Assembly: GCA_018667915.1 (NCBI GenBank)
Contig: JABIRI010000334.1
Location: 1-54,790, forward strand
Direction: 5' to 3'
Source of the DNA: Opitutaceae bacterium
GTDB lineage: Bacteria > Verrucomicrobiota > Verrucomicrobiia > Opitutales > Opitutaceae
DNA length: 54,790 bases
Shown here in pieces: positions 2,476 through 41,113 of the stretch. The notes beneath the pieces were generated by a model, which worked only from the letters and a program-made list of their open reading frames with translations, had not been told where the DNA came from and ran no database searches. Position 1 is the first letter of the stretch. Every line of letters begins with the position of its first letter. Both the position numbers and the translations under genes were made by a program.

Positions 2476-5400
2476 TTAGAACAGGAGCTTGAAGCCTGTC
2501 TGGATACGCCAGCGGGAGAGCTGAGCGTAGCGACCGGTGCGGGTGCTGGTGCCACGACCTCCATTAAAATCATAGGCAATCTGGGATCCATCTGGGCTGA
2601 TGGTGCCGCTTGCAACAGCGAGAGTGCCAAAAGGAACTTCGTCGATAATGCCCGACTTGGAGTTCAGCAGGTTCGCTACGTTGAGCACATTGAGGAAGAT
2701 TTGACCACGAAGACGACCGCGCAGAGGAACGTTCTGCGTGATGTTCAGGTCAAAGTTGTTCCTCCAGTCCGTGCGCAGACTGTTGCGTCCGACGACTTGA
2801 CCCCGTTGGACACCCAAGGAATCCAGATAGGTAAACATTTCCGTCAGGCCGCTGGAATTCGCGGTGTCGATGATCGAGTCGTTCGGTCCACTCGGAACAT
2901 AGAAAAGATCGTTATCGAAGTCCGCGTCGTCGCCGTTGTAGTCATTGTCGAAAAGCAGACTGTAGTTTTGTCCGCTTTGACCAATATAGGTGAGGTTGAA
3001 GTTGGTGTCCCAACCGTCAGCCAATTCCATGTTGTAGGTCAGGCGAGCCAGCACGCGGTGTTCTGTCTCGTAGGCCGAGGTGCCGAGCTCCGGAGTATTT
3101 TGATTGTAGATCGGATTTCCTGCGAAGTTGGACCACGCGGTAGAGCTACCTTGATTGGAGATGTCCTTGGAATCTCCGTAGGTGTAGCTGACATCGGTGC
3201 TCCAGTTGTTTCGCATGTTGCGACGAATGCCGAAGGTGTAGTTGAGGCTTTCGCCCTTGCTAGCGTTGTTGAGCTGATAGACGTCGTTGTAGGCGGCCGA
3301 GTTGCCATTGGAGGCGGTGCGTAGGGAGCCTGCGAAGCGGGTGCGGCCATCTGGAGTCGTTCCGATTTCACGCAAGTTAATGTTGCTGGTGTAAATCGAG
3401 GTATTGGCCCTCGTTACCAGCATTTCGGCGTAAGCCATCCAGGGGCTTTCCGAGCTGAGTCGATGCTCAATATTCAGGTTACCCTTCCAAATGGAGGGGA
3501 GATCGAAATCTGGAGCGAGCAGCGCAATCGTGGAACGACCAGCACCGAGTTGATCTTGAGAAACGAACAACACGGGGTTCTCGGGATCAAAATCGTTGTC
3601 GAGGTAGCCCTTGAGTCCGCCACCATTGGCCCGATCGTTGCCAGAGGGAGGGGAGAAGAAGTCCGTCGAGTTGAGTCCGGTGTTGGAGTAGGCGTTGGAG
3701 ACCCACACCCACGGATTACGGCCCATGAATAGCCCCAAACCGCCGGTAATTTTGGTCAGACCGTCATCATCGACATCGAGCTGAAAGCTGAAGCGTGGTG
3801 CGAGCAATTCGGAGCCGTCCATCGTGTTGGTGTTGGGCGTGCCGAAGATCTGCTCAAACGACTGTCCGCCGCGGCCTGGATTTTCGGATACGGGGCGATC
3901 CGTGGTCACGTAATCGTAGCGGAGACCGAAGTTCACCGTGAGCCGGTTATTCACATCCCACGTGTCCTGGATAAAGAGGCCGTTGGTGGTAAAGTCGGAT
4001 TCGGCGGCGAGAGGGACTCCTTGGACACCGACGGAGCGGCGGAAGAACTGGATTTCGTCGGCGTAAAAGTCTGCCACGTTGTCAAACGTCATTTCTCCGA
4101 AGGTCTGTTGCAGGAACAGATTTACGAAATCGGACTCTTCGCGATCGAATCCAAAGGTGATCGTGTGGTCGCCCGTGAAATAATCGGCGGCGAGGTAGAT
4201 GTTGGTGACGTCGGTCGCCAACTCGTTGGAGTGACGAGAGTCATCGCGTCCGAAGTAGAGCTCGCCGCGGCTGGTGGGTGCGCCGGAACGGGTGGTGCCG
4301 GGGAAGTCGTCGATCACAATTTCAGGAAAGACGTTGGGGTTGCCCGGGAGGCTGATGAATTCGGATTGACCGTAGCGGAACTCGGTCCGCCAGTTGTCGC
4401 CCCAGTTGGAGAACATTTGGAAGACGACCGATTCATTGGTGCGATTGTCCGTATACCAATGAGAAGTCAGGTTGGTTTCAGGCTGGGATGACGAAAAGTC
4501 GTCGTATTCGGAGAACTGGGGTTGATTACCTTTGGTTTTGTTCCAACGCAAAGAAGCGCGGTGGTCTTGGTTGATGATCCAGTCCAGTTTTACGAGAGAC
4601 TTTTCATCAGCGAGTGGAACGGTGGCACCGGCGGGGAGCCCCCATGTTCCCGGATCGAATCCGTATTCGTTTTGGACGAATGCAATAGTTCGCTCGAGTT
4701 CGGCGGGGTCTGGAATAAATCCAGGAGTCGGGCCGGCGGTGTTGCGCTCGAGTTCTTCATAAGAGCCGAAGAAGTAGAGTTTATTGGGAATGATTGGACC
4801 GCCCAAGGTCGCTCCCCAGGTGGTTTCTTCAAACACATCATCGAGTCCAGAGATCGGATTCTCTCCGCGAGTGTTCTCATCTTCATGGAAGTAGTAAACA
4901 GATCCGGTGAAGTCGTTGGTGCCACTTTTGGTGACGGCGTTGATAGATGCTCCGGTGAAGCCCGATTGGCGCGTGTCGTAGGGAGAAACTTCGACCGCGA
5001 TTTCATCGATCGTATCCATCGAAATCGGATTGGCGAGAGCGGGGCTACCGTCTGATCCGAGGCCAAACTGGTCGTTAATCCGCACCCCATCGATCTGGAA
5101 GCTGTTCATCTTAATGTGCTGCCCGGCAGCTGAGATACTTCCAGCACCCGAAGAGGCGTCCAACATCACAACGCGAGGATCAAATTTCGCGATATCATTG
5201 AACGAACGATTCGCTTTCGGCGTGGTGAGAATTCCGTTTTCACCCAGAACCGTGCCTACGCCGGCACTGCCGTTGCCGAAGGCAAGTTCACCACTTTCTT
5301 CCACGGTGAAAGCTTCCAAAGTCACTACCGACTCATCGGGCTGCAAAATGAAGTCCGCCTCGTAGGTGCGACTCAATTCGAGCGAAACGTCGCGCTCTCC

Positions 5401-5700
5401 CTTTGGGGTATATCCGACGGATCGGACCAGAATGGTGTAGGGACCGCCGACTCGCAGGCCGCGAAATGTGTAACGACCGGAGCTGTTCGTCGTGGTGGTT
5501 TGCACGCTACCGGTTGGCTCGTGCGTAACGGTGATTTCAACTCCTGGGATTCCGTTTCCTGTGTTTCCGGTGATTCTTCCTTTTAATGCGGAAGAGGTAA
5601 TTCCTTGACCGAACATGGAGCTCTGGAAGAGCACCACGAATGCAGTCAGCATGCACACCCAGCTAAAGGGTGATCGTCTGTTTGTTGATAAGTTGTTCAT
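2476..5700 (-). CDS. TonB-dependent receptor with N-terminal carboxypeptidase-regulatory domain (Oar-like)
   Basis: From the ATG at 5700 the protein has 1074 residues. It starts with a signal peptide (MNNLSTNRRS then a hydrophobic core, cleaved near SMFGQ). A CarboxypepD_reg domain follows at about residues 35-120 (LKGRITGNTGNGIPGVEITV), then a TonB-box-like segment (DESVVTLEAFTVEE), a plug with FQIDGVRINDQFG, and a beta-barrel ending in phenylalanine (RIQTGFKLLF), the outer-membrane insertion signature. This order matches the Oar family of large receptors. Reading is open to an ATG at 5730, but MNNL-type starts are shared with the second receptor here, so 5700 is preferred. It probably imports or binds a large ligand such as peptide or glycan; substrate unknown. 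Confidence 0.92.
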   Translation of the reverse strand: MNNLSTNRRSPFSWVCMLTAFVVLFQSSMFGQGITSSALKGRITGNTGNGIPGVEITVTHEPTGSVQTTTTNSSGRYTFRGLRVGGPYTILVRSVGYTPKGERDVSLELSRTYEADFILQPDESVVTLEAFTVEESGELAFGNGSAGVGTVLGENGILTTPKANRSFNDIAKFDPRVVMLDASSGAGSISAAGQHIKMNSFQIDGVRINDQFGLGSDGSPALANPISMDTIDEIAVEVSPYDTRQSGFTGASINAVTKSGTNDFTGSVYYFHEDENTRGENPISGLDDVFEETTWGATLGGPIIPNKLYFFGSYEELERNTAGPTPGFIPDPAELERTIAFVQNEYGFDPGTWGLPAGATVPLADEKSLVKLDWIINQDHRASLRWNKTKGNQPQFSEYDDFSSSQPETNLTSHWYTDNRTNESVVFQMFSNWGDNWRTEFRYGQSEFISLPGNPNVFPEIVIDDFPGTTRSGAPTSRGELYFGRDDSRHSNELATDVTNIYLAADYFTGDHTITFGFDREESDFVNLFLQQTFGEMTFDNVADFYADEIQFFRRSVGVQGVPLAAESDFTTNGLFIQDTWDVNNRLTVNFGLRYDYVTTDRPVSENPGRGGQSFEQIFGTPNTNTMDGSELLAPRFSFQLDVDDDGLTKITGGLGLFMGRNPWVWVSNAYSNTGLNSTDFFSPPSGNDRANGGGLKGYLDNDFDPENPVLFVSQDQLGAGRSTIALLAPDFDLPSIWKGNLNIEHRLSSESPWMAYAEMLVTRANTSIYTSNINLREIGTTPDGRTRFAGSLRTASNGNSAAYNDVYQLNNASKGESLNYTFGIRRNMRNNWSTDVSYTYGDSKDISNQGSSTAWSNFAGNPIYNQNTPELGTSAYETEHRVLARLTYNMELADGWDTNFNLTYIGQSGQNYSLLFDNDYNGDDADFDNDLFYVPSGPNDSIIDTANSSGLTEMFTYLDSLGVQRGQVVGRNSLRTDWRNNFDLNITQNVPLRGRLRGQIFLNVLNVANLLNSKSGIIDEVPFGTLAVASGTISPDGSQIAYDFNGGRGTSTRTGRYAQLSRWRIQTGFKLLF

Positions 5701-6073
5701 TTGTTCTAGCGGGCTTTCATTTGTTTGCATTTCTGCCGCGCGGTTCGATTTGGGCCGAGACTGCTCCCGGTGACTTCAAACTGAGTCTCCTCAAGGCGGA
5801 GAATCACAATCAATTTCTTGTTTTGCTAATTTGTAGTTTTGTTTTCGAGCATTTCACTCGAGGAGGGCTATTGTCCTCTGGAGAACGAAATGCGGATTAG
5901 TCCCTCGAGTTGCTCTTCCGTTCGCGGGGGGTCAAGGCCGACCTTGCAACGTCGCCAATACGATAAGGGATAGTTTCACGAATGTTACGTCATATTAGAA
6001 TAACGCGTCGATTTCCCACAATTTGAGAAGCTTCGCTCCGAGCGGAGAATCAAAATACCCTTGGAATTGGGAT
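5701..6073. other. Intergenic region upstream of the Oar-like receptor; no gene seen
   Basis: The 373 bases between the start of the receptor gene and the end of the ACT-domain gene contain no convincing coding sequence. The receptor's promoter should lie here on the minus strand, but I could not identify clear -35/-10 boxes. A short inverted repeat (CGCTC/GAGCG, near 6034) lies near the ACT gene end without a clear T-tract. Confidence 0.5.
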
Positions 6074-6529
6074 TTAGCGCGAGATGTCGGCCTGAGTGAG
6101 GATCCGAAAACCGCTGTTGTTCAACGCTTGAGCGGCGACATCGGCATCCTCGACGTTGATGACCACTCCATTTTTTTCCGAAGGCCGCACGAGGAAGCTG
6201 TAGACGTAGTGGATATTAATTTCTGCTTCCAGCAGGGCGCCCAACACGTCCTTGATGCGGTGTTCACCTTCGATTTCGGTGGCGAGCACGCTGACCTCGG
6301 TGAAGGGGAAATCGTTGTTGATCATGAGTTCCCGAGCGCGATCAGGATCGTCGACAAGGAATCGCAGAATGGAGCTGTCCGTCGTATCCAAAACCGTCAG
6401 TGCGACGATGTGAACGTCGTGGGCCTGAAACACCGAGCAAAGATCGTAGAGTCGCCCGACTCGATTTTCGGCGAAAACTGAGAATTGCTTAACCGGATCC
6501 AGGGCGATTGCGGTGGTGAACTCCGACAT
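6074..6529 (-). CDS. Tandem ACT-domain protein
   Basis: This 151-residue soluble protein is composed of two ACT-like units, residues about 12-75 (FSVFAENRVGRLYDLCSVF, then VHIVALTVLDTTD) and 80-145 (EHRIKDVLGALLEAEINIHYVYSF). Each begins with the characteristic strand-Gly-helix layout that binds amino acids. No catalytic domain is present, so a ligand-sensing regulatory role is likely; relatives are annotated only as ACT-domain proteins. It is transcribed alone, divergently from PEPCK, separated by about 145 bases. Ligand and partner are unknown. Confidence 0.85.
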   Translation of the reverse strand: MSEFTTAIALDPVKQFSVFAENRVGRLYDLCSVFQAHDVHIVALTVLDTTDSSILRFLVDDPDRARELMINNDFPFTEVSVLATEIEGEHRIKDVLGALLEAEINIHYVYSFLVRPSEKNGVVINVEDADVAAQALNNSGFRILTQADISR

Positions 6530-6674
6530 GAGGCGAAGTCAAAACGGTCTACGTCTGAGGGTCAATCGCAGGCCAACCACGGGGTAGCTTCGCGCCCAAA
6601 GTGCAAAAGGCACGCAGGGAAGAGCACGGATTGATGAGTCGGTTTCTCGCGAATCGGTTTTACTCACTTCCGCA

Positions 6675-8510
6675 ATGTTTCCACCTTCAACTGAAATGCC
6701 TTCTTCGAAAAACGCGCAGCCTCTCAGCACGAATAAAAATCTCCTCAAGTGGGTCGAAAAAATGGCGGTGCTTTGCCAGCCTGAGGCGATTCATTGGGTG
6801 GATGGCTCGCAGGCCGAATACGATGCTTTGTGCGACGCGATGGTGGAGGGCGGCACGTTCACCAAGTTGAACGAAGACCTCTGGCCGGGTTGTTTTTATG
6901 CGCGTTCGGATGCTTCGGATGTCGCCCGCGTGGAAGACCGCACCTTCATATGCTCGTTGTCCAAAGACAGCGCGGGACCGACTAATAATTGGGAAGACCC
7001 CTACAAGATGCGGCGCAAGTTGAAGGGAATTTTCAAGGGCAGCATGAAAGGACGCACGATGTATGTGTTGCCGTTTAGCATGGGACCGGTTGGTTCACCG
7101 ATGTCGCAGCTTGGGGTGGAGTTGACCGATTCGCCCTATGTCGTGGTGAACATGCGCATCATGGCGCGGATTGGTAAGGATGTTTTTGCCGAAATCGATA
7201 AGAACGAAAAACGGGTGGTGCCGTGTGTGCACTCGGTGGGCGCACCGTTGGGGGAAGGCGAAGCGGACGTCGCTTGGCCGTGCAACAAGGAGAAGTATAT
7301 CGTTCATTTTCCGGAGACCCGGGAGATCTGGTCATATGGCTCGGGTTACGGAGGAAATGCGCTGCTCGGAAAGAAGTGTTTCGCTTTGCGTATCGCATCC
7401 AACATGGCGCGAGACGAAGGGTGGATGGCCGAACACATGTTGATCCTTGGCGTCGAGGATCCGCAGGGCGAAAAAACTTATGTGGCGGCCGCATTCCCGA
7501 GTGCTTGTGGCAAAACGAATTTTGCGATGCTCATCCCGCCGAAGCCATTGGCCGAAAAGGGCTGGAAGGTTTCCACGGTCGGTGACGACATTGCTTGGAT
7601 CAAACCCGACGAAACGGGAAAACTACGGGCGATTAATCCTGAGGCAGGGTTCTTTGGGGTGGCTTCTGGCACGTCCGCGCAGACCAATCCCAATGCGATG
7701 AAGTCTTTGGCCAAAAACGCCATCTTCACCAACGTCGCTCTCACCCCCGAAGGCGGGGTGTGGTGGGAAGGCATGACGGATGAGCCCCCACCTCAATTGA
7801 CCGACTGGAAAGGCAACGCGTGGACTCCAGATAGTGAATCACCGGCGGCGCATCCCAACGCCCGTTTCACCGCCCCGGCATCGCAGTGTCCAACGATTGA
7901 CGAAGCCTGGGAAGACCCGAGTGGCGTGCCGATTTCGGCCATTGTTTTCGGCGGCCGTCGTGCGACGACCATGCCGCTCGTCTACCAGGCTTTCAATTGG
8001 TCGGGCGGCGTTTATATGGGCGCGACGATGGGATCGGAAAAAACTGCGGCGGCGGCCGGCAAGGTAGGCGAAGTGCGTCGTGACCCGATGGCGATGTTGC
8101 CCTTCTGCGGCTACAACATGGGCGACTATTTCCGCCACTGGATCATCATGCAGAAATCACTCACCGAGACCCCGCGGGTCTTCAATGTGAATTGGTTCCG
8201 CAAAGATGATGACGGTAAGTTCCTCTGGCCGGGATTCAGTGATAACATGCGGATCCTGCAATGGATCGTTGATCGGGCCCGTGGACGCACCGCCGCCAAG
8301 GAGACGCCGCTCGGATGGCAGCCCAAATACGAGGACATCGATTGGACGGGTCTCGATTTTTCGGAAGAGGAATTCCGTTCACTTCAGTCGGTCGACCGCG
8401 ATGCCTGGCGCCGCGAAATCATCGGCCACGAAGAGTTATTCCTGACCCTTCACGATCACCTGCCCAAAGAGTTGGTCTACGAGCGCGAACTCCTAATCTG
8501 CCGCCTGTAA
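6675..8510 (+). CDS. pckG: Phosphoenolpyruvate carboxykinase (GTP)
   Basis: The 611-residue protein matches the GTP-dependent PEPCK family in length and motifs. It has [11 protein letters not shown] and [11 protein letters not shown] at the start, the P-loop FPSACGKTN at residues 274-282 with the family's reactive cysteine (C278), and the late block [15 protein letters not shown]. The enzyme converts oxaloacetate and GTP to phosphoenolpyruvate, CO2 and GDP, the entry to gluconeogenesis, in the cytosol. An alternative start at Met8 (6696) is possible; neither start has a clear Shine-Dalgarno sequence. It is monocistronic, followed by a REP-like palindrome region. Confidence 0.97.
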
Positions 8511-35883: not shown

Positions 35884-36876
35884 TCAGAACAAAGAATTGG
35901 CGGCCACCCCAACTGCGGTGATCGGGCCTTGGTCGGCCAATCCATCCACGGCGCGATTTACTTTTTGCACGGTCGACTGAGCCTCGAGATAGAGGCTGTC
36001 GTCGTTGATAAGGCGACCGAGCGTGCCTTCGCCGCTATTCAGTTTGTGGGAGAGTTCCTGCAGATTGTTCACCGTAAGCTTGAGGCTGGATGCGGTCTTT
36101 TCGTCGTAGATCAACGTGCCCAACGTGCCCTCCCCATTCTTCATGTGGGTAACTATGCCTTCTGCTTCACTCATGAATGTATTGGCAGACTCCGCGGCGG
36201 AGCGAATCTCGGTGATGGCGGCCATCAGGTCAGTGTAACCCTTTTCATCTTTGAGGAGTTTTCCGAGGGTGCCTTCACCCTCTTTTAGGCGGCTAGAGAC
36301 GATCTCTAAGTTGGCGGTAATGGTGTCGATCTTCTTACGGTTATCGTCGAGCAAGGCGTTCATTTTACCCATCAGACTGTCCTCGGAACCATCGGTTCCG
36401 AGAGCGCCGGTGAACTGGGTGAGTGCCTGTTCCACTTTGCGCCCGATTTCACCAACTTGAGAAATCACGGTATTGAGGTCGGGGGTGTCTTCCGAACGCA
36501 GGGTGCTACCCGCGGCAAGAGCCGCCGAATCGGGACGCCCTAGGGTGAGCGACATGTAATTGCTGCCCAACAGACCGGACATGGCGATGGTGGCGACGGA
36601 GTCTTCGGGGATTTCAATGCCATCGGCAATTTGCATGACGACCTCGGCGTGGCGGCCGTTCAGGCGGGTCTCTTTCACGATGCCGACGCCGACCCCGGCA
36701 AGCCGAACTTCGTCGCCACTCTTGAGTTCTTTGATGGTGGCGAATCGGGCAGTGAGTTCGTAAGCCGCTTTCTGGTTCAGCTTGTTGCCGTTGAGCGATT
36801 CGTGGGTGATCCAGATGAGGGCCATCCCGAGCAGGAAAAACAGCCCAACTCGGGCCGACATTTGTGCGTTATTCAT
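35884..36876 (-). CDS. mlaD: MlaD-like MCE-domain lipid transport protein
   Basis: The 330-residue protein has one N-terminal membrane anchor (residues 8-25) and an MCE domain (about 40-115: FATIKELKSGDEVRLAGVGV; SVATIAMSGLLGSNYMSLT). The C-terminal half is helical and contains three spaced repeats of GEGTLGKLLKDEKG / GEGTLGTLIYDE / GEGTLGRLINDD. It is the periplasmic substrate-binding ring of an Mla-type phospholipid transporter. The start overlaps the mlaF stop by four bases. Confidence 0.92.
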   Translation of the reverse strand: MNNAQMSARVGLFFLLGMALIWITHESLNGNKLNQKAAYELTARFATIKELKSGDEVRLAGVGVGIVKETRLNGRHAEVVMQIADGIEIPEDSVATIAMSGLLGSNYMSLTLGRPDSAALAAGSTLRSEDTPDLNTVISQVGEIGRKVEQALTQFTGALGTDGSEDSLMGKMNALLDDNRKKIDTITANLEIVSSRLKEGEGTLGKLLKDEKGYTDLMAAITEIRSAAESANTFMSEAEGIVTHMKNGEGTLGTLIYDEKTASSLKLTVNNLQELSHKLNSGEGTLGRLINDDSLYLEAQSTVQKVNRAVDGLADQGPITAVGVAANSLF

Positions 36877-37679
36877 GATGATGTCTCCAATGATTTGAAA
36901 CGGGGATTTTGTAGATTGATTTGGGGATTCAAGAACTCGGTGATGATGGGATCAGTCGATTTTTGGAATTCTCCTGGCGGAGCGACTGAATGGAGTTGGC
37001 CGCCCTGCATCAGTGCGAACCGGTCGGCGATGGTCAGTGAGAGGTCACGATCGTGTGAAACGACGATGCTTGTGACCGCGTATTCCTCTCGCAGCGTCGC
37101 GATGATTTCGGCGATCGTTGCCGCCATGATGGGATCGAGCTCGCTGGTCGGTTCGTCGTAGAGGAGCAGTTGGGGTTCCATCACGAGCGCACGAGCGATG
37201 GCGACCCGTTTTCGCATGCCGCCGGAAAGTTCCGCCGGCATTTTCTGAACGGCATGTTCGATAGAGAGAATCCGCAGTGCGCGCATGACACGGTCGCGCA
37301 GATCTTTTTGGGGACAGAGCCGATGCTCGTGTGGATAAAGCGCGAGATTGTCATAGACAGAGAGTGAGTTGAGCAGCGCGCCCGATTGAAAGACCAACGC
37401 GAGAGCGAACTGATCGCGTGTCTCGGGCAGGGTAGGATTGAATCCGTTGATATCCAACTTGCCGCGGGTGGGGACTTCGAGGCCGGCGATATGTCGCAGC
37501 AAGACCGATTTGCCCGATCCGCTCGGCCCCATGATCACGAAAATTTCGCCAGGTTCGACATTGAAGCTGACGTCGTGGAGCACCTCTTGTGATCCGTAGG
37601 ATTTTGAAAGACCCTCGACTTTCACCGCAGCGGGGCTGCGGTCCTGGCGCTGGATGGGAGATTTGCGGGAAGTAGCCAT
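36873..37679 (-). CDS. mlaF: MlaF-like ABC transporter ATP-binding protein
   Basis: This 268-residue ATPase has Walker A GPSGSGKS at residues 51-58, the signature LSGGMRKRVAIARAL, and Walker B LLLYDEPTSELDP. It powers MlaE/MlaD-mediated lipid movement between the inner membrane and periplasm. A basic N-terminal extension of about 15 residues precedes the core. It lies four bases after the mlaE stop in the operon. Confidence 0.95.
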   Translation of the reverse strand: MATSRKSPIQRQDRSPAAVKVEGLSKSYGSQEVLHDVSFNVEPGEIFVIMGPSGSGKSVLLRHIAGLEVPTRGKLDINGFNPTLPETRDQFALALVFQSGALLNSLSVYDNLALYPHEHRLCPQKDLRDRVMRALRILSIEHAVQKMPAELSGGMRKRVAIARALVMEPQLLLYDEPTSELDPIMAATIAEIIATLREEYAVTSIVVSHDRDLSLTIADRFALMQGGQLHSVAPPGEFQKSTDPIITEFLNPQINLQNPRFKSLETSS

Positions 37680-37683
37680 GGTG

Positions 37684-38436
37684 CTAGGCGAGCAATTTGG
37701 TGATGAAATAATCCAAGGTCAGAATTGCGATGAGTGAGAGCACCACAGATTTCGTGACCGCGAGGCCGATTTCGCGGGGCCCTCCCTGGGTGCGGAGGCC
37801 GGTGTTGCAGGAAATGATCATTACGACGATGCCAAACACCTCGGCTTTGATCAGTCCATCCATCACATCGCTGAAAGAAACATAGGATTGCAGGTTACGG
37901 AAAAATTCGTCGGCGGAGAGTCCGATGAATCCCACGTATTCGCAGACCACCGCACCGCCAAACCAGCCGATTAAATTCGCCAACATGGTCAGCACGGGCA
38001 TGACCAAAATTACCGCGAGCAAGCGAGGGAGCACCAACAACCGCTCCGGCGGAATGTTCATGGTTGTGAGCGCGTCGATCTCCGAATTGACCCGCATGGA
38101 AGCGAGCTCAGCGGTCACGGCGCTACCGACCCGGCCGGCCAAAATAATCGCCACCATCACCGGGCCGAGTTCCCGGGCCATGGAGGCTCCGACTAAGGCT
38201 CCGATAAATTCTTTGGCACCAAATTCTCGTAAACTGATGCCCGCTTGCAGGGCCAGAACCGAGCCCATGAAGAAACAGAGAATTCCGATGATCGGCAGAG
38301 AGGTGTAGCCGATGAGAAACCCTTGTTCGGTAATCCGTTTTAGGATTCGCGGTGCTGCAGGCAGCATCGCGAATGCCCGCCAAGTCATGATGACTCCGGC
38401 ACCGAATGCTTCGAGAAAATTGTTAATGCGATTCAT
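37684..38436 (-). CDS. mlaE: MlaE-like ABC transporter permease
   Basis: From the ATG at 38436 the product is 250 residues with five to six hydrophobic segments. The block GALVGASMARELGPVMVAIILAGRVGSAV and the EIDALTTMNIPPERLLVLPR coupling helix are the MlaE signature. It is the transmembrane permease partner of MlaF and MlaD. The ATG overlaps the preceding gene's stop (ATGA), implying translational coupling; upstream reading to 38526 lies inside that gene and is rejected. Confidence 0.93.
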   Translation of the reverse strand: MNRINNFLEAFGAGVIMTWRAFAMLPAAPRILKRITEQGFLIGYTSLPIIGILCFFMGSVLALQAGISLREFGAKEFIGALVGASMARELGPVMVAIILAGRVGSAVTAELASMRVNSEIDALTTMNIPPERLLVLPRLLAVILVMPVLTMLANLIGWFGGAVVCEYVGFIGLSADEFFRNLQSYVSFSDVMDGLIKAEVFGIVVMIISCNTGLRTQGGPREIGLAVTKSVVLSLIAILTLDYFITKLLA

Positions 38437-39884
38437 CGACGAGAAGGAGAACTTAACCGACTGGACGCCCAGAATGATCCGTTGCTCGCCCGTTCGATGT
38501 TGAGCAGGCCAGAGAGAAACCCCCAACGTTTGCCGTCAGCGTTGCGGGTGTAGTCAAAGAGGGGACCCAGATGAAACTCCCGATGCTGACGCGTGGAGCT
38601 GTCTGCATAGGTGATGGCATCCCATAAAAACGAGTGCCGGGTTTCGCCGGGTTTAGATTGGTTGAAGCGGTAGAGTGCAAACAATGGAGACCACATCTGC
38701 CGCATGCGTTCGTTGTGCGGAAAAAAAACGTCGAACGGACTGAAGGCCTGCACCTGCACCTGACCGGCACCGTTGTTCCAGTGGCTAAACAAGGGCCAGA
38801 CGTGGCGTTTGATCGCGGCAGCGAGATCGGGTGATTGGAGGCTACTTTGGACTTCGGCATGGTAGACGAAGTAGAACAGTTGTTGCCGTTGATGATGGAG
38901 ATGATTGTTGCTCCATTGTTGGTCGCGCCAAAGCGGCCAAAAAATCCAGGTCTGGGTGCGGGCGGGAGAACGGGAGTGGCTGTAGAACGGTGCCCAGCGA
39001 TTCACGTAACGTTCCTCGCCCCGGCCTTGAACCCAAAAAGGATACAGGAGGTGCTTGGCTTGATAGCGGACCGGGGAAGTGCGATCGACGTAACCAAAGA
39101 ACGGCCACAGAAATGATTCGCTGCGAAAACCGGTGGACTCGGATTGAGCGTAGAATGGCAAAAAACCTGATCGGTAGGTGGGTTCTTCGGTATGCAGGTT
39201 TTTCTTACTGCTGAACCCAAGTGGCCACAGAAAGAACCGACGCTGGCTGACTCCAACCTCTTGGCGTTTTCCGGCTAGGGGCCAGAATTCGAAACCGGCG
39301 TGCCCATCGCCGCTGATGGTTTTAATGAACGGCCATGGCGTGGCGGTGGTAATCTCACGGTCATTTTGGTAGCGGACAAAGAGCGGGGCAAACAGCCACT
39401 TCAGGCGGGCTTGGCCGAATCGATTCTGAATATCGCCGTAGAGGGGAAACAGCGCGCGGTAACTTGATTCCTCCTCACCCGAATCTCGGGAGAAATAAAA
39501 GGGCCATACACTGAAGCGATCCACCTGATCCGAACCTGAATCGGAATTGATGAGGTTGAAAAACGTCCACCGTTTGCGATCCGATGCGCCGCCGGTGACG
39601 TGATGCCAAAATGGATAAGCGATGCTCACGGCGGTGGAATCATCGCCACCCGCGAAATGGTGCCATAGCGGCCGAAATCCGCGTAGCTCGTTTCCTGCCT
39701 CATCAGTTGATCCGAAACGAAGTGGTCCCAACGAGCTCCAACGCTCTACGCCCTCTTCGTCCGGGGCCTGAGTGACCATCAACGGCCATAAATTGCTTTC
39801 TTCCGGCTGCACAGCAATGGCCGTGACCGCGCAAAGGCACGCGGCCCCGAGAGCTGCCAGAGCAGATTCGAGACGCAGATTCAT
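38433..39884 (-). CDS. Secreted WP-repeat protein of unknown family, first gene of the Mla operon
   Basis: The 483-residue protein begins with a signal-like segment (LAALGAACLCAVTAIAV). The rest shows about 16 short hydrophobic-Trp/Pro units spaced about 20-30 residues apart, such as SVWPFYFSRD, EFWPLAGKR, FLWPLGFSS, FLWPFFGYV, LLYPFWVQG, WIFWPLWRDQ and HVWPLFSHW. Regular spacing suggests a repeated beta fold such as a barrel or propeller. No known domain is recognised. Its stop overlaps the mlaE start by four bases, so it is probably an accessory protein of this transporter; an outer-membrane location is speculative. Confidence 0.75.
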   Translation of the reverse strand: MNLRLESALAALGAACLCAVTAIAVQPEESNLWPLMVTQAPDEEGVERWSSLGPLRFGSTDEAGNELRGFRPLWHHFAGGDDSTAVSIAYPFWHHVTGGASDRKRWTFFNLINSDSGSDQVDRFSVWPFYFSRDSGEEESSYRALFPLYGDIQNRFGQARLKWLFAPLFVRYQNDREITTATPWPFIKTISGDGHAGFEFWPLAGKRQEVGVSQRRFFLWPLGFSSKKNLHTEEPTYRSGFLPFYAQSESTGFRSESFLWPFFGYVDRTSPVRYQAKHLLYPFWVQGRGEERYVNRWAPFYSHSRSPARTQTWIFWPLWRDQQWSNNHLHHQRQQLFYFVYHAEVQSSLQSPDLAAAIKRHVWPLFSHWNNGAGQVQVQAFSPFDVFFPHNERMRQMWSPLFALYRFNQSKPGETRHSFLWDAITYADSSTRQHREFHLGPLFDYTRNADGKRWGFLSGLLNIERASNGSFWASSRLSSPSRR

Positions 39885-40021: not shown

Positions 40022-41113
40022 CTAAACGGTAATGGACCCTCCGACCGCCAATGCTTGGAAGCTCGCAGGAGGTATTGACGCCTGTTCTTTGGCAATTTCG
40101 AGGGCTTGGGGAGGGGCCTCGCGTTCTTCGTCAGTCAATTGAAACGTGCCCCAATGAACGCCGATCGACGTCACGGCTCCGACGGTTTGATGGATGCGAA
40201 CGGCTTCGGCGGGATTACAGTGCTGGGAAGCCATGAACCACCGCGGCTCATAGGCGCCGATGGGGATGAGCGCCAGATCGGGCTCGCCACAACGCTTGCG
40301 AATGTCAGCGAACATAAAGTCATCCCAGGCCGTATCGCCGGTATAGTAGACGGTGCGTCCGCCAACCTGCAGGAAAAAGCCGGACCATAGCCGTCGGTTG
40401 CGGCTTCCCATGACACGATTGCTCCAATGCCGAGCTGGAGTCGCGCGCACATGGAAACCGTGCGCAAATTCGTGAGCCTCCCACCAATCGAGCTCGATGA
40501 TACGTTCGTCGCGGAATCCAAATTCGCGTAAAAGAGCCCCGTTGCCCAATGGCGTGACTACGATGGGCGGGTGAGGCAGCGAAGCGAAGTGTCGGAGACT
40601 CGCTTGGTCGCAATGATCGAAGTGATCGTGGCTTAGCAGGATCACGTGAATATCGGGCAGATCCTCAACTGCGATTGCGGGAGGGTGCACCCGCTTGGGA
40701 CCCGCCCAAGACAATGGACTGACGCGATCACTGAAGACCGGGTCAGTGAGAATATTGGCGTGGCGTGTCTGCAGTAGAACCGACGCGTGATTGATCCACG
40801 TAGCGCACACCGTTCCATCGAGCGGCGCTTTGGGCAGAGCGGGAGGATCAATGGCGACTGTTTCGGGCCAAGGTGAAGCGGTAGAGGTCCGCTTCCATTT
40901 CAAGACATCCCACCAGGTTCGGTTCACATGCGTGCCGGGATTGAAGAATTGGGCACCATCGCAGTGGTCGGAAATCGGAAATCGCGGTCGGGATGCCATG
41001 TGATTTTTCAATGCGGCGGCGCCTAGCAAGGTGCCTCCGAAGAGGATGAGATTGCGCAGAAAACGGCGTCGAGTGAAGCGTGGAAATCGCATGAATGGTC
41101 CGGTTTTACCCAT
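40022..41113 (-). CDS. Metallo-beta-lactamase-fold hydrolase with Tat-type leader (NAPE-PLD-like)
   Basis: This 363-residue protein has a twin-arginine-type leader (TRRRFLRNLILFGGTLLGAA). LSHDHFDHCD is the H-x-H-x-D-H zinc site. TDPVFSDRVSPLSWAGPKR and PIGAYEPRWFMASQHCNPAEA match the NAPE-phospholipase D / UlaG-like group that hydrolyses phosphodiester or lactone bonds; substrate unknown. A second ATG (41092) just before the twin arginines is an alternative start. It is monocistronic. Confidence 0.88.
   Translation of the reverse strand: MGKTGPFMRFPRFTRRRFLRNLILFGGTLLGAAALKNHMASRPRFPISDHCDGAQFFNPGTHVNRTWWDVLKWKRTSTASPWPETVAIDPPALPKAPLDGTVCATWINHASVLLQTRHANILTDPVFSDRVSPLSWAGPKRVHPPAIAVEDLPDIHVILLSHDHFDHCDQASLRHFASLPHPPIVVTPLGNGALLREFGFRDERIIELDWWEAHEFAHGFHVRATPARHWSNRVMGSRNRRLWSGFFLQVGGRTVYYTGDTAWDDFMFADIRKRCGEPDLALIPIGAYEPRWFMASQHCNPAEAVRIHQTVGAVTSIGVHWGTFQLTDEEREAPPQALEIAKEQASIPPASFQALAVGGSITV

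Follow-up and report, generated by a model that had tools for sequence, protein, structure and literature searches.

The WP-repeat protein is encoded on the minus strand at positions 38433..39884 of a 54,790-nucleotide stretch of DNA, here called the window, from an Opitutaceae bacterium of the phylum Verrucomicrobiota (contig JABIRI010000334.1, assembly GCA_018667915.1). It belongs to an undescribed family whose genes are strongly coupled, across the phylum, to those of the Mla lipid transporter, and it is itself co-encoded with the permease MlaE, an ABC ATPase, and MlaD. There is about an even chance that the WP protein is the outer-membrane-side partner of a long, barrel-less MlaD and does the job of MlaA and MlaC. 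A first-pass annotation had placed an unrecognized Trp/Pro-repeat protein here without naming a strand; the open reading frame (ORF) and its translation confirm the protein and assign it to the minus strand.

Linkage of the WP gene to the Mla genes

All counts of spread cover Verrucomicrobiota genomes. A WP homologue occurs in 54 of 95 genomes, that of the window included. Of 387 sampled genomes of the phylum, a profile built from 48 members matches 183 (172 at E<=1e-10). A search of genome contigs with the WP protein alone returned one locus, from a near relative, an uncultured Opitutaceae bacterium.

The order-level set comprises one locus from each of 53 genomes; L003, which duplicates the contig stretch of L036, was left out. 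The mlaE gene lies next to the WP gene, downstream and on the same strand, in 50 of the 52 testable loci of this set, L084 being cut by a contig end. Among these 50, the genes are broken in L043, mlaE is cut by a contig end in L062 and L082, and L072 has a single frame. In 20 distant loci, mlaE is directly downstream in 17 of the 19 that are testable (only a piece in L126); the contig stretch of the remaining locus, L129, ends about 300 bases past the WP gene. Nine more WP loci come from MlaA-bearing genomes, and eight of them show the linkage (the exception is L171). Taken together, 75 of the 80 testable loci, in the order and in distant classes alike, keep the linkage, and the association with Mla first proposed for the window extends to relatives across the phylum. 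An ATGA overlap of stop and start codons is found in 14 of 73 measured loci; the gap between the two genes has a median of 13 bases and is larger in distant loci. In L072 (7170-9227), WP and MlaE share one open frame of 686 residues, from which about the last 50 WP residues are missing; this may reflect a deletion, a real fusion, or a misassembly.

Within the window, the gene order on the minus strand is WP, mlaE, ABC ATPase, and mlaD. The WP ORF starts with ATG and encodes 483 residues, and its TGA stop overlaps the ATG of mlaE (38436) as ATGA; the N-terminus resembles a signal peptide, with a hydrophobic stretch and a helix at residues 2-18 of the AlphaFold2 model. The length, the signal peptide, and the ATGA overlap given in the first-pass annotation are borne out. 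The mlaE gene (37684..38436, minus strand) encodes a lipid ABC transporter permease (PF02405, 242.7 bits; TIGR00056, 224.1 bits, above cut-off). The ATPase gene (36873..37679, minus strand; PF00005, 111.6 bits) is called mlaF-like from its place in the operon. The mlaD gene (35884..36876, minus strand) is long, encoding 330 residues with an N-terminal MCE domain (PF02470, residues 38-111, 58.6 bits) and about 200 further residues.

Two operon types and the distribution of MlaA and MlaC

MlaA and MlaC have no match anywhere in the assembly of the window (99% complete, 361 contigs), in searches whose controls were positive in E. coli and Caulobacter; the absence of both, first noticed in the window, therefore holds genome-wide. 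The same genome carries a second MlaE operon (L157, G000:C255:8000-22000, positions 3975-7576), which encodes an MlaE of 378 residues (about 160 of them extra and N-terminal), MlaF, an MCE protein (PF02470), and an ABC_trans_aux lipoprotein (PF03886).

The phylum has two operon types: WP-mlaE-F-D with a long MlaD, and mlaE-F-D-C-A with a short MlaD. The median length of MlaD is 330 residues in 69 WP loci versus 152 residues in 20 MlaA loci (measured from the first Met of the open frame, with some frames cut by contig ends and one 330-residue outlier in an overlapping frame among the MlaA loci). Seventeen of the 20 stretches around MlaA also hold mlaE-F-D (about 5 kilobases off in L138) and three do not (L137, L140, and L153); the ORF adjoining MlaA is MlaC in all seven tested. 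In G183, G251, and G283, read at both loci, each type has a separate operon; in G128, G138, G148, and G343, mlaE accompanies the WP gene and is missing from the stretch that holds the MlaA gene. In a tree of MlaE (113 rows, several branches long), MlaA-type MlaE forms one clade (97/64), and WP-type MlaE splits into two large groups, of 47 and 23 rows; second hits from L120 and L122 make up a further pair, which sits on a very long branch and was kept in the counts. Because the tree splits MlaA-type from WP-type MlaE, the two operon types look old and separate. A recent one-for-one swap of WP and MlaA beside the same mlaE was rejected, since the tree separates the types.

In the order Opitutales (63 genomes), WP and MlaC nearly exclude each other: one genome has both, 34 have WP only, 19 have MlaC only, and nine have neither (Fisher p 2e-8, relatedness ignored). 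For the WP/MlaC counts, G428, a WP genome with an MlaC match under the cut-off, was dropped, and G231, whose MlaC match is partial (E 5.5e-12), was scored as positive for both. For the WP/MlaA counts, 11 of the 183 WP genomes, those with E above 1e-10 (nine of them MlaA-positive), were dropped. Exclusion between WP and MlaA seems more pronounced: across all 387 genomes, 17 have WP and MlaA, 155 WP only, 135 MlaA only, and 80 neither; the corresponding numbers for the other classes are 16, 120, 105, and 20. The exclusion between WP and MlaA in the other classes is partly a lineage effect, because MlaC was not found in 107 of 152 MlaA genomes. With the WP/MlaA statistics thus weakened, the argument for replacement rests on MlaC in Opitutales.

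MlaE occurs in 360 of the 387 genomes, and WP is absent from all 20 listed of the 27 genomes that lack MlaE. Elsewhere in the class of the window, the profile matches no WP-like gene upstream of mlaE in 16 MlaE loci (L176-L189, L191, and L194) from 15 genomes without WP and MlaA, nor does it match in five other MlaE loci scanned alongside. Many MlaA matches of the other classes lie in ORFs of 600-850 residues. No WP protein was found joined to large MlaA-containing proteins, as 22 MlaA loci, 20 of them without mlaE, hold no WP match. The MlaA domain stands at the front of proteins of 600-750 residues, away from mlaE, in L196, L204, L206, and L207, and similar proteins without a second match are present in L197, L211, and L212. 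Weak alpha/beta-hydrolase matches lie behind MlaA in four of the seven large proteins scanned, all under curated cut-offs; such proteins are perhaps MlaA-lipase fusions.

Family identity

The WP family is absent from the sequence libraries searched. Neither Pfam nor NCBIfam has a family that the window protein matches at E<=1, MlaA (PF04333) and MlaC (PF05494) included, and the 48-member profile matches no PDB sequence at E<=1. Over the 48 members, Pfam gives two matches, in one member each (E 0.026 and 0.083), with none to the MORN repeat, and NCBIfam gives one family at E<=0.1, LA_1737_Cterm (NF047486), in two members. This family, presumably named after a Leptospira locus, scores at best 28.1 bits over about 100 residues of one distant member (L082), far under its curated cut-off of 60 bits, and neither the window protein nor its genome matches it; the resemblance is a sub-threshold lead only. 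A tblastn search of plasmids returned nothing usable, and a literature search at the level of listings found no description of the family. Its first description as unrecognized stands, with no known unrelated family emerging from the libraries.

Repeat unit and predicted fold

The number of Trp-Pro motifs in the WP protein exceeds chance. The mature part holds eight WP dipeptides (1.5 expected, maximum 7 in 20,000 shuffles) and 12 [WFYL]-P-hydrophobic motifs (2.4 expected, maximum 10 in as many shuffles). Nineteen units have a core proline (residues 34, 54, 72, 91, 128, 147, 167, 185, 202, 221, 243, 261, 282, 299, 317, 364, 383, 400, and 441), spaced 17-22 residues apart where units are consecutive; other units are degenerate. 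The first-pass annotation saw the repeat correctly and undercounted it: the 45 strands of the AlphaFold2 model point to about 22 Trp-Pro beta-hairpin units rather than about 16. The 48-sequence alignment has 24 invariant columns, of which 15 are proline, four tryptophan, four glycine, and one glutamine. When the 19 units of all 48 sequences are averaged, the consensus is polar strand - L - W - P - [LF] - [FY] - polar strand; hydrophobic residues fill 91% of cells at position -2, 100% at position +1 after the proline, and 89% at position +2, and position -1 is W in 45% of cells.

The WP protein is predicted to be a long single-layer beta ribbon. The AlphaFold2 model of the window protein, computed from the 48-sequence alignment, has a mean predicted local distance difference test (pLDDT) of 92.2 and a predicted template modelling score (pTM) of 0.79, and contains 45 strands, each 4-8 residues long, and, apart from the signal peptide, a single helix (392-402). 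A distant member, L131, modelled from a separate 25-sequence alignment (pLDDT 87.1, pTM 0.72, 43 strands, helix 393-400), has the same architecture of about 44 short strands, mostly of 5-7 residues. The prolines lie in the short gaps that separate strands. The ribbons matched by structure have about 18-20 strands, and because they align over similar lengths, we infer that Trp-Pro lies at the hairpin turns.

Among structural matches, Foldseek returns MORN1 with probability 1.00 (TM score by target 0.41), the TCP domain of CPAP/SAS-4 with 0.98-0.99 (TM score up to 0.46), and two cilia proteins, also with 0.99, but at a root-mean-square deviation (rmsd) of 27-29 Å. Its four E-values below 0.001, for large propeller or cilia proteins, were discounted at an rmsd of 24-38 Å. 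With VIA-align, the window model matches OspA, TCP, junctophilin, and MORN1 at Z 7-8.5, often with a large rmsd; the closer superpositions include Toxoplasma MORN1 (4.2 Å over 159 residues) and 9e5c_1m (4.0 Å over 116 residues). For the second model, TCP and OspA reach Z 9-10.3, again often with a large rmsd, and MORN1 is missing from the 50 matches listed. Such Z values are common without true kinship, and the models are read here for arrangement, not relation. Like the predicted WP ribbon, MORN, CPAP/SAS-4 TCP, and OspA are meandering antiparallel single-layer ribbons of short hairpins; in contrast to MORN proteins, however, WP presumably has a Trp-Pro motif at its turns where MORN proteins have the MORN pattern, and the similarity is one of arrangement only. 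The beta-barrel or propeller first suggested for this protein is not favored, though both occur among the weaker structural matches, for the predicted strands are short and the better matches are single-layer ribbons.

Export and the upstream gene

The WP protein is predicted to be exported. Nine of 25 distant members (one of them, L120, doubtful) have a lipobox-like pattern, which we take to be PS00013, and probably part of the family is lipid-anchored, while the other members are exported but not anchored.

Upstream of the WP gene, the window encodes a metallo-beta-lactamase-fold protein at 40022-41113 on the minus strand (PF12706, 142.3 bits), which we take to be NAPE-PLD-like with a twin-arginine-like N-terminus. 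Nineteen of 53 loci in relatives likewise have a homologue upstream, and the protein is possibly a phospholipid enzyme tied to the WP operon.

Function of the WP protein

Canonical Mla consists of MlaFED with MlaC and MlaA, and the WP operon shares its permease, ATPase, and MCE families. Like MlaC and MlaA, the WP protein appears as an additional exported member of its operon; in contrast to the canonical system, MlaA and MlaC are absent here and MlaD is long. Another parallel is Veillonella parvula, where, according to a passage of PMC10665443, MlaEFD also occurs without MlaA and MlaC, and a long MlaD is proposed to bridge the envelope across the periplasm. The outer-membrane part described there is a domain of MlaD, whereas in the WP operon that place may be taken by a separate protein with a different fold.

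It is reasonable to infer that WP replaces MlaA and MlaC, given the make-up of the operon and the near mutual exclusion from MlaC in Opitutales. WP is also a natural candidate for the outer-membrane end because it is conserved, exported, sometimes lipid-anchored, and encoded with a long MlaD in an operon type that has no MlaC or MlaA. In the proposed mechanism, a second type of Mla transporter would consist of MlaE, MlaF, the long MlaD, and, as a dedicated fourth part, WP. The most likely location of WP is the side of the periplasm that faces the outer membrane; a lipid anchor would keep it there in some relatives, and the hydrophobic Trp-Pro edge or MlaD in others. From this position it would attach the far end of the barrel-less MlaD to the outer membrane and share in passing phospholipid between the two, in one direction or the other. 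More tentatively, and somewhat against the balance of probability, this ribbon subunit would dock MlaD to the outer membrane or carry phospholipid between them as part of a second, MlaA- and MlaC-free Mla design of the Verrucomicrobiota.

Several observations weigh against an outer-membrane-side replacement of MlaA and MlaC. Five intact WP loci (L076, L077, L127, L128, and L171) have no mla genes in the fetched stretch, and the ORFs read downstream of WP in these loci include none. In the other classes (261 genomes), WP and MlaC show no exclusion (both 7, WP only 129, MlaC only 11, neither 114; p 0.33), and seven of the 18 MlaC genomes there also have WP. The replacement proposed in the first-pass annotation is partly supported: the operon type lacks both proteins, and WP and MlaC nearly exclude each other in Opitutales but not outside it. 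Elsewhere in the class of the window, WP and MlaA are both missing from 51 of 63 genomes; neither is therefore indispensable to an MlaE system. The lipobox-like pattern occurs in only two of the 48 order-level members and not in the window protein. Finally, the best Z-scores are modest (8.5 and 10.3), and a resemblance of fold shows no function.

Other roles can be drawn from the same observations. The ribbon itself may be the lipid path, its L-W-P-[LF]-[FY] edges serving as a hydrophobic rail or, if curled, as a lined groove that crosses the periplasm and lets lipid travel between MlaD and the outer membrane. About 44 strands at 4.7-4.8 Å would give a contour of roughly 207-211 Å, and the width of the periplasm is of the same order. 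The near-uniform hydrophobicity around the core proline, with polar ends, and the long amphipathic sheets of apolipoprotein B among the weak structural matches are consistent with such a path. It is nevertheless unlikely, as the long MlaD may already span the periplasm, in the manner proposed in the Veillonella passage of PMC10665443. We also think it rather improbable that WP is an assembly or stability factor of MlaFED, or a periplasmic spacer, that touches neither lipid nor outer membrane: strict linkage to mlaE would fit any subunit-specific partner, and the outer faces of the units are polar, yet lipoprotein-like relatives exist and the other operon type has MlaC and MlaA instead.

An integral outer-membrane beta-barrel that serves the transporter, comparable to the one that long MlaD has in other phyla, would account for the aromatic strand with which many relatives end (e.g., ..WRLFWFDF or ..TRLFYFLEF), which we take to resemble an outer-membrane targeting signal. 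VDAC, LptD, BtuB, and porins are among the structural matches of the predicted models, but they score low, strands mostly of 5-7 residues are short for a barrel, and better matches such as the Toxoplasma MORN1 superposition are single-layer ribbons; a barrel is therefore very improbable. Least probable of all is that WP is an envelope protein with no relation to Mla beyond the shared operon. The five loci without nearby mla genes would fit it, whereas the linkage kept in nearly all testable loci, usually across short gaps within the order, argues the reverse.

The proposed outer-membrane-side partner of MlaD bears on a wider question. Passages of PMC10665443 describe MlaABC as mostly proteobacterial, state that the MlaD beta-barrel is completely absent in bacteria of the Planctomycetes-Verrucomicrobia-Chlamydiae (PVC) group, and mention unidentified proteins as one possibility. 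The WP family addresses the question of how MlaEFD can reach the outer membrane where MlaA, MlaC, and an MlaD barrel are all lacking. The family is a concrete candidate, kept beside mlaE from Opitutaceae to distant classes and with a confidently predicted ribbon fold. If this reading is true, the WP protein would be the missing outer-membrane end of the Mla systems of PVC bacteria.
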